Source: Betaproteobacteria bacterium (GTDB taxonomy: Bacteria > Pseudomonadota > Gammaproteobacteria > Burkholderiales > Burkholderiaceae_D). From it: a DNA stretch of 50,908 nt. The stretch lies in NCBI GenBank assembly GCA_013287275.1, contig JABDED010000005.1, forward strand, positions 15,111-66,018, read 5' to 3'. Positions 1,591 to 39,327 of this stretch are shown in pieces. The position numbers were made by a program, and so were the translations under genes. The notes beneath the pieces were generated by a model. That model was not told where the DNA came from and made no database searches. It was given only the letters and a program-made list of their open reading frames with translations. Position 1 is the first letter of the stretch. The number at the start of each line of letters is the position of its first letter.

Positions 1591-2685
1591 GTGACAGAGT
1601 TTTCCAAAAAGGACCAGCTATATCAGCTGATACAGGCGAATCCCTTCATCTCGCAACAAGAGCTTGCGGGGCAGTTGCAGCTGTCGCGCTCGGCGGTGGC
1701 GGGCCATATCGCCGGCCTGATCCGCGAGCGCAGGATATTGGGGCGCGCCTATGTATTGCCTGAAGAGCGCGCGATCGTCTGCATAGGCGGCGCCAATATG
1801 GACCGCAAGGTGTGCACCTTGCAGCCTTTGCAAATGGGCACATCCAACCCGGTATCGCAACATGAGAGCCTGGGCGGTGTCGCCCGCAATATTGCAGAAA
1901 ACCTGGCGCGCCTGGGCGCCGCCGTCAGCCTGCTCAGTGCGCTGGGCGACGATGCCGCCGCCAAGGCCATGCTGGCACAGGCGGAAACGGTAGGAATGGA
2001 CATGCGCGGCAGCTTGCAGCTTGCGGCAACCGCGAGCGGCAGCTATACGGCGGTGTTGGACGATAGCGGCGAGATGCTGCTGGCTTTGTCCCATATGCAG
2101 CTATGCGACCAGTTGACACCGGAATTCTTGGCCTTGCGCCAGCCGCAACGCGCCGCTGCGGCAATGACCGTCGCCGACCTGAACTTGCCGCAAGCCAGCA
2201 TCCGGCTGCTGCTGCAGGAGGCGATACGGGATAGTGTCCCGCTGGTGCTGGTGGCTGTCTCGCAGCCTAAGATGGCGCGTTTGCCGGCCGACCTGCATGG
2301 CCTGCGCCTGTTGATATTGAACCAGGGCGAGCTGGAAAGCCGCATAGGCAGGTCGCTGGAGGATACCGAGCAAATGGCGCTGGCTTGCCGCACGGTGCAG
2401 CAGCAGGGCGTGCAAGACCTTATCGTTACCTTCGGCGGCGACGGCGTACTGTATACGTCGCCCACCGGCGTGGTCAGGCTGGCGGCTCCGCAGGTGGCGG
2501 TGCGCGACGTCACCGGCGCCGGCGACGCCTTTTCGGCGGCAGTATGCTGGTCGCTGAACCGCGAGCCGGACGATCTTGCATTGGCCTGCCGCCGCGGCCT
2601 GACGCTGGCGGCGCTGACCATACAAAGTAGCGCCACTGTCTGTACCGACCTGACGCCGGCCACGCTGGATACGCTGCTGGCCTGA
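1591..2685 (+). CDS. psuK: HTH-PfkB fusion kinase, probable pseudouridine kinase
   Basis: Probably phosphorylates pseudouridine to pseudouridine 5'-phosphate, the substrate of the next gene's product. Residues 1-60 form a winged-helix-like HTH (ISQQELAGQLQLSRSAVAGHI, a DeoR/MarR-style segment). From about residue 62 a PfkB kinase begins (CIGGANMDRKV, GGVARNIAENLARLG) and ends with DVTGAGDAFSAAV at about 306-318, where Asp312 is the expected catalytic base. The start is GTG at 1591. It opens directly into the HTH, and no upstream ATG in frame is better. psuG follows after 37 bp, so the two form an operon. HTH-fused kinases of this type are known next to PsuG. Whether the HTH binds DNA, for example the palindromes upstream, is inference. 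A general nucleoside kinase is the main alternative. Confidence 0.82.
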   Translation: MTEFSKKDQLYQLIQANPFISQQELAGQLQLSRSAVAGHIAGLIRERRILGRAYVLPEERAIVCIGGANMDRKVCTLQPLQMGTSNPVSQHESLGGVARNIAENLARLGAAVSLLSALGDDAAAKAMLAQAETVGMDMRGSLQLAATASGSYTAVLDDSGEMLLALSHMQLCDQLTPEFLALRQPQRAAAAMTVADLNLPQASIRLLLQEAIRDSVPLVLVAVSQPKMARLPADLHGLRLLILNQGELESRIGRSLEDTEQMALACRTVQQQGVQDLIVTFGGDGVLYTSPTGVVRLAAPQVAVRDVTGAGDAFSAAVCWSLNREPDDLALACRRGLTLAALTIQSSATVCTDLTPATLDTLLA

Positions 2686-2722
2686 TATCAAGACTGATTA
2701 AATTTTATTAAAGGATAGAAAA

Positions 2723-3631
2723 ATGCAGAATTACCTGGTGTATTCAGAGGAAGTGAAACAAGCGCGCGCGGCCGGCAAGGCCATCGTGGCGCTGGAATCG
2801 ACGATCATCTCGCATGGCATGCCTTATCCGCAGAATGTGCAGACTGCGCGCGAAGTGGAGCAGATCATCCGCGACGCCGGCGCAGTGCCTGCCACTATCG
2901 CAATCATGGGCGGCAAGATCCTGGTCGGCCTGTCGCCGCAGGAACTGGAGCTGCTGGGCACCACGCCAAACGTGATGAAAGTCAGCCGGCGCGACCTGCC
3001 CTACGTGCTGGCGGCCGGACAGTTCGGCGCCACGACGGTGGCGGCGACGATGATTTGCGCGGAGCTGGCCGGCATACAGGTGTTTGTCACCGGCGGCATA
3101 GGCGGTGTGCACAGGGGCGCTGAAACCAGTTTCGATATTTCTGCAGACTTGCAGGAACTGGCGCAGACTTCGGTAGCGGTAGTCTGTGCCGGCGCCAAGT
3201 CGATACTGGACCTGGGCCTGACCCTGGAGTACCTGGAAACGCATGGCGTGCCGGTGGTCAGTGTAGGCCAAAAACAATTTCCGGCCTTCTTCACTCGCGA
3301 CAGCGGCTTCAATGCCGATTTCCAGCTGGACACGGCAAAGCAACAGGCTGATTTTATCCGCACCAAATGGCAACTGGGCTTGCGCGGCGGCGTAGTGATC
3401 GCCAATCCTGTGCCGGAAACCGATGCGATGCCGAAAGCAGAGATCGATGCGATTACCCAGCGGGCTTTGCAGGAAGCGCAGGGCCAGGGCATCGCAGGCA
3501 AGGCCGTCACGCCCTTCCTGCTGGACCGTATCAAGCAATTGACCGCGGGCCGCAGCCTGGCGACCAATATCGCGCTGGTGAAGAATAACGCCCGGGTAGG
3601 GACGGAGCTGGCGATCGCTTTGCTTGGTTAG
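2723..3631 (+). CDS. psuG: Pseudouridine-5'-phosphate glycosidase
   Basis: Reversibly cleaves the C-C glycosidic bond of pseudouridine 5'-phosphate to uracil and ribose 5-phosphate, so that modified nucleoside from RNA turnover can be reused. The 302-residue length is normal for the family (about 300-310). Family hallmarks are visible: [16 protein letters not shown] near residue 23, the glycine-rich [20 protein letters not shown] around 125-145, and [19 protein letters not shown] around 155-175, which holds the lysine expected to form the Schiff base. [10 protein letters not shown] lies further on. The ATG at 2723 has AAAGGAT upstream. It lies in an operon with the HTH-kinase and ends 15 bp from a convergent gene, with no obvious terminator between them. 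Confidence 0.95.
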
Positions 3632-18596: not shown

Positions 18597-18672
18597 CCGG
18601 GCCTTTGCTGGCTTCGGAATCCGGCATACTGCTATTTCTAGTTTGATTGATCACTGTGTTTTTATGATCGCA

Positions 18673-18775
18673 GGCGGGAGTGGCCCGGTGGCCACTTACC
18701 TTTTCTGGCTCACTTTATTTTGGCGGAGCAAAATAAAGTGAGTGGCTGTCGGGCCCCCGACGTGCATCCACGAAG
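18673..18775. repeat. Structured intergenic repeat, short copy, between corA and arginase
   Basis: Contains a perfect 14-bp stem, CTCACTTTATTTTG (18709-18722) pairing with 18729-18742, closed by the hexaloop GCGGAG. It is flanked by GTGGCCACTTAC on one side and GTGGCTGTCGGGCCCCCGAC then CCACGAAG on the other. The order of elements matches the right end of the large repeat at 37907-38462, which has CTTAC...TTTG-GCGAAG-CAAA...GTAAG followed by GTGGCTGCCGGGCC and CCACGAAG. Loop and flanks are kept while the stem sequence differs. Lying between convergent genes, it could terminate transcription in both directions. Confidence 0.75.
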
Positions 18776-35394: not shown

Positions 35395-36837
35395 ATGCGA
35401 AACATCTTGCACATGAATCAACGTAATTTCTTTTCCGCCCTCGCAATATCGGCATCCCTGGTGTTGAGTAACTCCGCATGGTCGCAAGTCAACTTTGCCA
35501 AGGGTGCCGCAACCGCGCCTTTCGCTGCCCCCATCGCCGCTGCTGCTCCGGCTGCGACGCCATCGCCCGCGCCATCCGTAACGGGCAAAGCCAAGCCGCA
35601 GCAAGTCAACAGCATAGTCGTGGTCGTCAATGACGAAGTCATCACCAAGCAGGAGCTGGATGAGCGCATCAAGACGGTAGAGCGGCGACTGGTTGCGCAG
35701 GGAACCCCCTTGCCTAGCAAGGCCGAGCTGCAAAAGCAATTGCTGGAACGCATGATCGTTGACCGCGCGCAGATACAGTTGGCAAAAGAGAACGGCTTTC
35801 GCGTTGACGACGTCAACCTGGACCGTTCCATCTTGCGGATGGCAGAACAAAATAAAATGTCTTTGCAAGATTTCCGCAACCAGATCGAACGCGAAGGCAC
35901 ACCTTATGCCAAGTTCCGCGAAGAAATACGCGATGAGATCATGATGCAGCGCATCCGTGAACGCGAGGTCGACAACAAGATCCAGGTCACGGAATCGGAA
36001 ATCGACAATTATCTTGCTGCCGTCAGCACGCCGACCAACAACTCGCAAGAATTGAATCTGGCGCAGATATTGATCAGGATCCCGGAAAACGCTTCCGCAG
36101 AGCAAATTGCGCTGCGCCGCACACGTGCCGAAGAAGTGATGCAGAAAGTGAAAGTGGGCGGTGATTTTTCCAAGCTGGCGGTGACGTATTCGGATTCCAG
36201 CGAAGCGTTGAAAGGCGGCGACCTCGGATGGCGTGAGCAGGATCGCCTGCCGCAACTGTTTGTGGATGCGGTTGCCAAATTAAAAGAAGGCGAAGTATCG
36301 GAAATCATCAAGAGCCCGAACGGCTTCCATATCCTGAAGTTGGTCGGCAAGCGCGCCATAGACGGCGCCAAGACAGCAGCGGCCACGTCCGTGCAACAGA
36401 CGCACGCACGCCATATCCTGATCAAGGTCAGCTCGGTGGTGACTGCCGCAGAGGCCAAGCGCAAGCTGCTGGAGATCAAGGAGCGCCTGGATAATAATGC
36501 CGCCAAATTTGAAGACCTGGCAAAGACTTTCTCCAATGACTTGTCGGCGTCCAAGGGCGGCGACCTGGGATGGATTTATCCAGGCGACACCGTGCCCGAG
36601 TTTGAACAGGCGATGAACAAGCTGAAGCCCAATGAAGTCAGCGAACCGGTGGAAACCCAGTTCGGCTACCACCTGATCCAGGTACTGGAACGCAAGAACG
36701 ATGACATGTCAAAAGACCGTCAGCGCGCTGCCGCCCGCCAGGCCGTGCGCGACCGCAAGGCTGACGAAGCGCTGCAGGACTGGTTGCGCCAGTTGCGCGA
36801 CCGCGCCTATGTAGAATTCCGTACAGAAGACAAATAA
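35395..36837 (+). CDS. surA: Periplasmic chaperone and peptidyl-prolyl isomerase SurA
   Basis: Escorts outer-membrane proteins, including LptD, across the periplasm. The 480-residue protein has a signal peptide ([21 protein letters not shown]), then an Ala/Pro-rich stretch of about 40 residues not found in E. coli SurA. The N-terminal chaperone domain follows ([20 protein letters not shown]). Two parvulin domains come next, at about 208-315 ([14 protein letters not shown]...[14 protein letters not shown]) and 330-435 ([12 protein letters not shown]...[13 protein letters not shown]). The start is the ATG at 35395 with GGAT upstream. An ATG six codons later is an alternative. The stop and the pdxA start share one base (TAATG). 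Confidence 0.95.
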
Positions 36838-37883
36838 TGAAACTTCCGGTCATTGCGCTGACCGTTGGCGAACCAGCGGGCATAGGACCGGAAATCTCCA
36901 TCAGGGCCGCATGGCAGTTGCGGCATGAAATACGGCCGGTGCTGATCGGCGATGCCGCCTTCCTTTCCATGCTGGCGGCGGAAATCTCGGACGACATCAG
37001 CCTGATGGGCGTTTCGCTGGAAGCACTGCGCAACGACGGCTTGCCCAATTGCAGCGACAGGCAAATCACCGTCATCGATTGCCCGCTGGCTGCGCATGTC
37101 GTACCGGGCCAACTGGATGCCAGGAACGGACGTTCGGTATTGCACACGCTGGATGTGGCGATAGAAAGCGTCTCGCCAGGCGCCGCCTGGTGCGACGCGA
37201 TCGTCACTGCGCCGCTGCAAAAAAGCACGATCAACGATGCCGGTGTCGCTTTCAGCGGCCATACCGAATACCTGGCGGAAAAGACCGGCACTGCGCAAGT
37301 GGTGATGATGCTGGCCTGCGAAGCCTCGGCAAGCTTGCCGCAGCCGCTAAGGGTGGCGCTGGCGACCACCCACCTGCCTTTGAAGGACGTGTCCGCGGCC
37401 ATCACTTTTGATGGCTTGCTGAAGACACTGCAGATTGTTGATGCCGATTTGCGGCAAAAGTTCGGCCTGGCGCAGCCGCGCATCCTGGTCACCGGCCTGA
37501 ACCCGCATGCGGGCGAAAACGGCTACCTGGGTCGGGAAGAGATAGACGTGATCACGCCGGTGCTGCAGCATGCGCAGTCCCTGGGAATTTCCGCCACGGG
37601 ACCGTATCCTGCCGATACCTTGTTCCAGCAAAAATACCTGGAGCAGGCGGATTGCGTGCTGGCTATGTATCACGACCAGGGTTTGCCGGTCTTGAAGCAT
37701 GCAAGTTTTGGGAATGGCGTGAATATTACGCTGGGCCTGCCTTTGATACGCACGTCTGTGGATCATGGGACGGCGCTGGATTTGGCGGCGCAGGGTTTGG
37801 GGCTGGCGGACGTGGGGAGCATGGTGGTGGCGATTCGGGTTGCTGCTGGAATGGTGCGTTCTCGCTCGGAGGCTCTTGCCTAG
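36837..37883 (+). CDS. pdxA: 4-hydroxythreonine-4-phosphate dehydrogenase
   Basis: Oxidises 4-phosphohydroxy-L-threonine with NAD(P)+ in the DXP-dependent route to pyridoxal phosphate. The 348-residue protein is slightly longer than the E. coli enzyme. Family motifs are [14 protein letters not shown] at the N-terminus, [21 protein letters not shown] (substrate and metal site with the His of GHTE), [29 protein letters not shown] and [12 protein letters not shown]. Metal-binding histidines are therefore present. It overlaps surA by one base, giving strict coupling. In many relatives rsmA follows at once. Here a 667-bp gap containing a large inverted repeat intervenes. Confidence 0.95.
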
Positions 37884-37906: not shown

Positions 37907-38462
37907 GGCCGGGGGTAGCCCGGCGGCTACTTACTTTCTTTGCTTCGCCAAAGAAGAGTAAGCAAAGAAAGGCGACCGCAAGCCTCGCCCCTACGGGGTG
38001 CCCGATTATGCGGCACAAAAAATGGGAAACGGGCGAAACTCGCTGCGCTCAAACACACCCGTTTCTGATCCATTTTCTGTACCGCACAATCGGCGAGGCT
38101 CCAAGCGGTTGAAGGTCAAAAACAACGGCAACCAGATGCTCCAATTTTGACCGTAACCTGTTACTTAAAATCTGGTTGATTTGATTTGATTTGATTTGAT
38201 TTGGGTGTTGGGGTTGTTGTTGAAGTTGCCGTTGACGTACCCCCGCTCGGGACGCAGCATTTTGTGCTTTACAGAAAATGGATCAGAAATGAACGTTGTC
38301 TGAGCGTAGCGAGTTTCGTTCATTTCCCATTTTTTGTAATGCATAAAATGTGATGGGGCTTAGCCCCATCACCCGAAGGGCAAGTCTGCGGTCGCCTTTT
38401 TTTGGCTTACCTTTTTTTGGCGAAGCAAAAAAATGTAAGTGGCTGCCGGGCCACCCCCGGCC
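37907..38462. repeat. 556-bp nested inverted repeat (two inverted copies of one structured element)
   Basis: The outer 28 bp (37907-37934 and 38435-38462) are inverted copies matching at 25 of 28 positions. Inside each arm the same elements follow in the same order. First is a hairpin with loop GCGAAG/CTTCGC. Then comes GGCGACCGC. A GC-rich short hairpin is next (37986-38000 left; 38350-38373 right, around GATGGGGC). Last is a long hairpin (left about 38003-38095, right about 38258-38349). Its loop is AAACTCGCTGCGCTCAAACA on the left and the inverted equivalent AAACTCGCTACGCTCAGACA on the right. Stem bases differ between arms but remain self-complementary (ACGGG/CCCGT versus ATGAA/TTCAT). The arms flank about 150 bp of unique sequence. 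A shorter relative lies beside corA. Confidence 0.85.
38176..38200 (+). repeat. TTGAT x5 tandem repeat
   Basis: Five perfect head-to-tail copies of TTGAT, followed by the diverged TTGGG and a G/T-rich run. It lies between the two arms of the large inverted repeat. A five-base unit in non-coding DNA could vary in copy number by slippage. No coding or regulatory effect can be inferred. Confidence 0.85.
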
Positions 38463-38550: not shown

Positions 38551-39327
38551 ATGAAACACATCGCACGTAAACGTTTTGGCCAGAACTTCCTGACGGACCA
38601 GATCGTCCTCAGCAATATCATTCGCTCCATCGATCCCAAGCCGGACCAGGCCATGGTAGAGATAGGACCGGGCCTGGCGGCGATGACCAAGTTGTTGCTG
38701 GATTCGTTGACTACGCTGCATGTGGTGGAACTGGACCGCGACCTGGTCGCCCGGCTGAAAAAGAATTTTGACCAGACCAAGCTGATCGTGCATGAAGGCG
38801 ATGCCTTGCAGTTTGATTTTGCTTCGATTCCGGTGGCCGCCGGCCAGAAGCTGCGCGTGGTCGGCAACTTGCCTTACAACATCTCCAGCCCCTTGCTGTT
38901 TCATCTGGCGGACTATGTGGACCAGGTGGAAGACCAGCACTTCATGCTGCAAAAAGAAGTGGTGGAACGCATGGTGGCGGATCCGGGCAGCAAGGCTTAC
39001 GGGCGGCTGTCGGTGATGCTGCAATGGCGCTACCACATGGAGCTGTGTTTCGTGGTGCCGCCTACCGCCTTCGATCCTCCGCCCAGGGTGGATTCTGCCA
39101 TCGTCAGGATGATACCCAAGGCAGAACGACTGGCTTGCGATGTGAAGAAACTGGAAGAGGTCGTGACCAAGGCGTTTTCCCAGCGCCGCAAGGTGGTGCG
39201 CAATTGCGTCGCCGGCATGTTCACCGAACAGGAATTGATCGCCGCCGGCGTCGATCCGCAGGCCCGCCCTGAGACTATTCCGCTGGAACAGTATGTAGCG
39301 CTGGCGGTCCTGCTTGCTACCCGCTAG
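38551..39327 (+). CDS. rsmA: 16S rRNA dimethyladenosine transferase
   Basis: Dimethylates two adjacent adenosines (A1518 and A1519, E. coli numbering) in 16S rRNA during 30S maturation. I start at the ATG at 38551, giving 258 residues that begin [16 protein letters not shown], the normal family start. A frame from 38509 would run through the upstream hairpin and is unlikely. Motifs are [15 protein letters not shown] (SAM binding), [14 protein letters not shown], and the catalytic [17 protein letters not shown] with NLPY. The C-terminal helical domain ends normally. The ribosome site is poor (AGAAAAAC), so leader structure may matter. It is the usual partner of surA-pdxA, displaced here by the inverted repeat. 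Confidence 0.95.

Follow-up and report, generated by a model that had tools for sequence, protein, structure and literature searches.

Many bacterial genomes carry unexplained intergenic repeats. MITEs are non-coding and have related inverted ends, a target site duplication and ends in common with an autonomous transposon. The ends of IS200/IS605-type elements are hairpins that act as single-stranded DNA in a strand-specific manner. In an excerpt of PMC2267715, ERIC, NEMIS and RUP are described as MITE-like repeats. REP sequences are 20-40 bp long with stems of 5-13 bp (excerpt of PMC3733652). GTAG REPs and REPINs, which belong with RAYT, are intergenic and reach high copy numbers, form inverted doublets with short spacers, show compensatory changes in their stems, include hetero-dimers and carry GTAG by the hairpin, as described in parts of PMC3116915 and PMC3733652. 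The R0-R200 and IR1_g repeats of Pseudomonas fluorescens are also intergenic, and the listed inverted repeats of the R families measure 11-43 bp (part of PMC2718517).

The repeat analysed here lies in a betaproteobacterial contig (JABDED010000005.1), of which a stretch of 50,908 nucleotides, the window, was studied. It comprises 556 bases at positions 37907-38462, is 69% identical to its own reverse strand and consists of two related arms in opposite orientation. The short (S) arm has 226 nt (37907-38132, plus strand), and the long (L) arm of 244 nt (38219-38462, minus strand) carries an extra hairpin and faces the S arm across a spacer of 86 bp (38133-38218). Covariance model R1 matched the S arm with 219.9 bits (E 9.5e-56) and the L arm with 212.4 bits, scores that are to be read with the fact that both arms were among the sequences used to build R1. 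The positions given by the model agree with the coordinates of the original prediction, which had been made from the sequence alone; its inverted match of the outer 28 bp at 25 of 28 positions was reproduced, and the loops and stems that it cited are present as written. It did not include the two pseudoknot-like pairings in each arm and a degenerate third copy at 18634-18762 (minus strand; R1 52.9 bits, E 1.6e-12). In this copy both outer ends and one paired C hairpin are retained and the interior is gone. It lies between two convergent ORFs that look like a CorA-type transporter and an arginase. The repeat itself is flanked by an ORF at 36837-37883 (plus strand), which served as query for congeneric loci, and by an ORF at 38551-39327 (plus strand), whose protein matched 42 of 43 congeneric genomes. 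We take these to be pdxA and rsmA, as the earlier reader named them.

Like the REPINs, the arms occur as inverted doublets. In the genus loci, 48 neighbouring pairs of complete arms were found within 400 bp; 35 of them faced each other (+-), 12 were direct and one was in the -+ arrangement, a count biased to pairs in the first 37 loci, for which the query had been the entire pair. The facing pairs had spacers of 65-224 bp (median 89) and consisted of 29 S+L and 6 S+S combinations, with no L+L. From the nearest relative, G066, 34 regions were fetched by single-arm matches. All 11 such neighbours in this genome were facing S+L pairs, and 16 of the 34 regions had one match only. We infer that the facing pair is the ancestral unit and that single arms are remnants. 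The arms also share the intergenic location, the high copy number and the compensatory stem changes of REPs and REPINs, but they differ from them in several respects. With 226-244 nt in the window they exceed the length of a short repeat, and a typical arm of about 220 nt combines two pseudoknot-like modules with a branched domain and occurs in long and short forms. The arms also have relatives in several phyla, and not one flanked the Y1 loci examined (0 in 50 loci). With the MITE-like ERIC, NEMIS and RUP they share the non-coding nature, the inverted ends, the scattered location and the presence or absence between relatives, but they have an elaborate covarying single-strand fold; no target duplication was seen in the diverged flanks, and no partner transposon was found. 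The ends of IS200/IS605 elements resemble the proposed ends in being strand-specific hairpins of single-stranded DNA, but they have a much smaller fold, and no transposase gene was present between or beside the arms examined. The likeness to R0-R200 and IR1_g is one of description only, several of these intergenic repeats having inverted ends around a variable core (part of PMC2718517).

The predicted fold of each arm has 12 helices, arranged from the outside inwards as module A/B, module C/D (both pseudoknot-like) and a branched domain (helices E to L). In the S arm, module A/B (37907-37930, plus strand) is a hairpin with the stem GCCGGG/CCCGGC, and its loop GTAG can pair with the next CTAC to form an H-type pseudoknot. 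GTAG or GTGG is present in most of 57 genus arms, and variants such as TCGG occur together with a matching partner. Module C/D (37930-37975, plus strand) consists of a long hairpin with the hexaloop CTTCGC (37943-37948), followed by a purine repeat and a GGCGA able to pair with the loop; in the S arm, the two potential strands of pseudoknot D are TCGCC (37945-37949) and GGCGA (37971-37975). The branched domain (37976-38108, plus strand) is closed by CCGC (37976-37979) and GCGG (38105-38108), and CCAC/GTGG, CCCA/TGGG and CCGA/TCGG occur as variants of this closing stem in the alignment. It contains a small hairpin, an extra hairpin in the long arms (38351-38371, minus strand; letters present in 21 of 57 aligned arms) and a long capped hairpin (38002-38093 in the S arm, plus strand). 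The cap follows the pattern AACTC-(mini-hairpin)-CTCARACA. In the S arm the conserved cap is AAACTCGC-TGC-GCTCAAACA (38036-38055, plus strand), and its complement contains GCGCAGC, which has the form GCGNAGC. In the L arm it is found at 38297-38316 on the minus strand, with GCGTAGC on the plus strand at 38304-38310. When folded as RNA, the S arm gave a z of -6.0 and the L arm (38237-38462) a z of -5.4, and the left arm folded as DNA gave a z of -6.2. In each case 0 of 200 dinucleotide shuffles were as good, in line with the internal folding that had been proposed for both arms.

Module C/D (37931-37970 and its equivalents) holds two similar purine stretches, which might compete with each other for a single pyrimidine strand or else stack on it, and all three strands are altered between the two orthologous copies at pdxA-rsmA. 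About 20 bp outside the arms, two recurrent motifs, ...GATTGCT and ...CTTCGTGGGTACA, were seen in the genome of the window and in its nearest relative, the latter motif seemingly tied to GTGG-type arms. Given these motifs, the element may reach further outward.

For the analysis of covariation, an alignment was made of 57 distinct arms that came from 34 loci within the genus. They had at least 100 bits, were long enough and were non-identical, and L007 and L009 were dropped as duplicates. In a structure of 75 pairs that includes both pseudoknots, 91.4% of 3940 cells were standard pairs and 41 of the 75 pairs were changed on both sides. The covariation score was 0.247 versus 0.097 in shuffles, whereas the count of further pair types lay below the shuffles (72 versus 77). 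When the partners were slid by 1-3 columns, pairing fell to 37-47%, a control that leans in favour of the structure because the structure was drawn from the same 57 rows. Helix A was paired in 94.7% and helix B in 94.3% of cells, with three pairs changed on both sides in each. The branched domain was paired in 85.1% of cells; helix F (59%) and the extra hairpin X (80%) paired poorly, and in the long capped hairpin 13 of the 23 pairs of helix 10 were changed on both sides. The compensatory changes that had been described between the two arms of one locus thus hold across many copies, in the genus and beyond.

The two pseudoknots were tested by comparing the mean longest complement with 300 permutations, which is a cleaner test for B and D, as both were absent from the model used to detect the distant arms. 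L195, titled Deltaproteobacteria, was placed in the Burkholderiales set. Pseudoknot D exceeded all 300 permutations in the genus, in the order (42 arms; 4.90 versus 4.31 for the highest permutation) and in the sets beyond, where 23 arms outside the Burkholderiales set gave 4.57 versus 3.96. Pseudoknot B exceeded all permutations in the genus and in the order, and outside the Burkholderiales set it was unsupported (mean 1.80, permuted 1.94). Six orthologous arm pairs of the window's genome and its nearest relative were also compared; the pair L378/L355, whose arm forms differ, L376, which has no orthologue, and the split arms were excluded. Here 16 structure pairs were changed on both sides, versus 2.2 expected with independent sides and no more than 9 in any of 10000 shuffles; 14 of the 16 were changes between Watson-Crick pairs. 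In the aligned pdxA-rsmA copies there are, for example, exchanges from T-A to G-C and from G-C to C-G and a paired insertion under the cap. The shape of the arm is kept while its letters change.

That copies exist elsewhere in the genome and in its relatives, as the original prediction supposed, was borne out many times. All R1 searches in genus, order and class were run with strict filters, and the counts include the genome of the window. Matches were found in 36 of 43 congeneric genomes, with 2 to 51 in each, one of the seven genomes without a match being 73% complete. In the order, 52 of 150 genomes and 36 of 92 genera had matches, and in the class 42 of 185 genomes, among them another one of the same order. 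When named genomes were searched for the cap motif, at least 118 stretches with titles from many phyla were obtained, some of which will be chance occurrences. On 80 of these loci R1 gave 102 matches at E up to 1, with cross-phylum scores that are inflated because the loci were chosen by the cap motif; full-length matches came from Bacteroidota, Haemophilus, Rodentibacter and Desulfuromonadales. The same logic of loops and hairpins is seen in relatives from Bacteroidota, Pasteurellaceae and Desulfuromonadales. By eye, the Bacteroidota copies follow the C/D logic with different letters (loop CTTGAT with ATCAAG downstream), and several Bacillota copies have the long hairpin with the cap only; Haemophilus copies have CTCGTG with CACG. 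With blastn, no match was obtained in the E. coli and phage collections, where diverged copies would escape this program, and 10 plasmid records covered 7-11% of the query, which is the outer and C/D part. Rfam gave no match to the window and, at E <= 0.5, two matches to five other loci, both under the gathering scores, so that no arm in these sequences matched a family at or above its gathering threshold. In the literature, the matches listed for the cap letters were unrelated, and the C/D letters gave none. Word searches, mostly without subscription papers, met no description of the family, and an earlier description is possible. The repeat between pdxA and rsmA is seemingly one copy of an old, widespread and unnamed bacterial repeat family.

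We then asked which strand and which molecule the fold belongs to. The RNA energy of 98 of 101 arms was compared on both strands, and in 97 of the 98 the complement had the lower value, by a mean of 10.6 kcal/mol; shuffles account for 6.7 kcal/mol of this, and an excess beyond the shuffles was found in 78 of 98 arms. Among 98 distinct rows, the arm orientation showed 156 A.C versus 30 G.T cells, which places the wobble pairs on the complement, although a single pair position contributes 35 of the 156. In an earlier row set, in which the arms of the window's genome were counted twice, 18 versus 11 pair positions leaned to A.C. Wobble pairs on the favoured strand made up less than 3% of cells (156/5651), and RNA families usually show more of them. 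Triloops on perfect stems of at least 4 pairs were of the GNA type 50 times on the complement versus once in the arm orientation (n=169, genus and order arms), and 60 versus 5 times of 216 when motif-picked arms were added. The complement of the cap likewise has the sequence GCGNAGC. According to a part of PMC4686876, DNA mini-hairpins with GNA or GNNA loops and at least two G-C pairs are exceptionally stable. These counts are to be read with two caveats: by a C-G rich stem, a GNA loop on one strand is a UNCG-type loop on the other, and the triloops are compatible with RNA too.

The excess of A.C over G.T cells and the location of the GNA triloops point to the complement of the arm, in the orientation used here, as the probable functional strand. 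Single-stranded DNA is plausibly its functional form and our first choice, because GNA loops are exceptionally stable as DNA and wobble pairs are so few. The original prediction had named selection on a folded RNA or an extruded DNA structure, or spread of the element by means of its structure. This was the right set of options overall, except that a symmetric cruciform in duplex DNA is disfavoured by the strand asymmetry and the loop types, which favour one strand.

The element had been said to separate two genes that are usually adjacent. Thirty congeneric loci with pdxA and rsmA were read out of 42 genomes with rsmA, and 28 of them had no arm there. The two with arms were the locus of the window and that of the nearest relative, whose rsmA is 93% identical. 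At six of seven compared loci of the window's genome, pdxA-rsmA included, arms were present at the syntenic place in the nearest relative, whereas the copy on contig 64 was absent there; the copy on contig 65 and the remnant in the window were excluded from this comparison. Since six of the seven copies are common to both genomes, movement would be slow. A target duplication or an exact boundary could not be read because the flanks have diverged. Orthologous arms were not each other's nearest neighbours and, in trees with mostly weak branches, not sisters either, so exchange between copies may carry some of the paired changes. The long arms did not cluster by genome, and concerted evolution within genomes was rejected on this ground, with the same weakness of most branches. 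The pairs may be kept by selection at the site, by copy exchange or by selection in the course of movement.

The position of the arms relative to genes was analysed with gene strands assigned by codon score. Among 63 blocks at gene junctions, 34 were tandem, 28 convergent and one divergent (convergent versus divergent, p 1.1e-7), and the nearest relative alone had 14 tandem, 17 convergent and no divergent junctions. Gene ends lay at a median of 75 bp from the blocks and gene starts at 127 bp. Of the single arms located between tandem genes, 8 had the proposed functional strand in sense and 4 in antisense orientation, too few to judge. A cruder count by the longest ORF (n=81), which calls the strand wrongly in at least one known case (L344), gave 42 tandem, 33 convergent and 6 divergent junctions, with 8 sense and 7 antisense single arms.

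As the best explanation of these results, to which we give a little less than an even chance, the arms are the ends of a non-autonomous mobile element that is folded as single strands. It starts from what was observed, namely the family, the covariation, the pair geometry, the strand asymmetry, the presence or absence at sites and the near absence from divergent junctions. The unit would be an inverted pair of ends of about 220-240 nt, usually one short and one long, facing each other across about 90 bp. Each end would form, as a single strand and presumably as DNA rather than RNA, a pair of pseudoknot-like modules and a branched domain in which a hairpin bears a GNA-type cap. If the complement is functional, the two functional strands of a pair would read outward from the middle. 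A candidate protein supplied in trans would recognise this fold, most plausibly where replication or DNA uptake exposes single-stranded DNA, and might move the pair as one unit into intergenic sites. Against a mobile element counts that pairing is maintained in the shared copies, whereas dead inserts would be expected to lose it. No mobiliser was found in 50 loci around Y1 matches, which contained 0 arms, and by eye, without a family search, the ORFs in three wider facing pairs and in four direct or distant-copy loci look ordinary and not like an autonomous partner. The near absence from divergent junctions (28 convergent versus one divergent) and the sense lean of single arms, weak as it is (8 versus 4), would also suit the main rival, a structured RNA that serves the host at gene 3' ends, in transcript end formation, as a decay block or in the insulation of convergent genes. 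Because the arms are inverted pairs, transcription from either side would always give one functional arm. The RNA-like complexity with pseudoknots, the lower RNA energy on one strand and the 16 double changes versus 2.2 expected in the orthologous arms agree with such a role. We consider it rather unlikely, as wobble pairs on the favoured strand are below 3% of cells, copies are absent from relatives at pdxA-rsmA and at another site, and 7 of 43 congeneric genomes have no R1 match.

If the element is mobile, RAYT, a Y1 transposase, comes to mind as the mover, and the repeat could be a giant element of the REP/REPIN type. On the complement, the outer module reads GTAG, two bases and a GC hairpin, and the inverted doublet, the spacer length and the GTAG by the hairpin resemble GTAG REPs and their TT dimers, as described in parts of PMC3733652 and PMC3116915. 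Y1 matches (PF01797) were present in 42 of 43 congeneric genomes, but also in six of the seven genomes that lack arms. In 30 + 20 loci around Y1 matches (50 of those found), no arm was detected at E <= 0.1, and a search for the outer-hairpin motif gave no match there. By eye, at least 10 of 13 RAYT-like genes read adjoin other, conventional GTAG-type repeats, and the arms are more complex than REPs and six to ten times as long. A giant REPIN is therefore quite improbable. The paired changes might instead arise by mutation, through template switching between hairpin arms or gene conversion between copies that keeps stems complementary without selection for structure. This would be consistent with the rarity of G.T and A.C intermediates and with orthologous arms that are neither sisters nor nearest neighbours, a pattern that sequence exchange among copies would give. 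However, covariation extends to the short pseudoknot pairings and, for D, reaches beyond the order; the strand asymmetry of mismatches and loops is not expected from such a mechanism, and there is no clustering of the long arms by genome. Moreover, conversion spreads compatible pairs but does not create them. We regard a mutational origin as improbable.

Returning to the mobile element folded as single strands, we propose, tentatively and with some doubt, that it belongs to a bacteria-wide class of paired, pseudoknotted single-stranded DNA elements whose short and long ends are distinct and whose GNA-capped hairpins are ultra-stable. They would be moved or maintained by a candidate enzyme for single-stranded DNA or by a general cellular process that acts on it, and would lack a name despite being one of the commoner structured intergenic elements of bacteria. 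A family that combines a single architecture, shared from Bacteroidota to Betaproteobacteria, with compensatory evolution and a definable strand offers a concrete object for asking how non-autonomous DNA persists over such distances and which protein reads a single-strand shape. Open frames over the arms, as in mechanical lists of ORFs, could pass for genes, and such frames have presumably been annotated as genes elsewhere.

Several loci showed further arrangements. In L272 (G060:C1:1379500-1383200), seven arms are clustered, four of them direct at steps of about 400 bp. L275 (G016:C1:3446800-3450000) has three minus-strand arms exactly 464 bp apart, an array that looks like a tandem duplication of the arm plus its flank. 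The RAYT-like genes of the genus (L097-L116) are flanked by conventional GTAG-type repeats of several kinds. The Haemophilus pairs (L261, Haemophilus aegyptius NCTC8502, 2650-3250; L215) carry, in or near the spacer, a sequence that looks like the DNA uptake signal, whose core is AAGTGCGGT.
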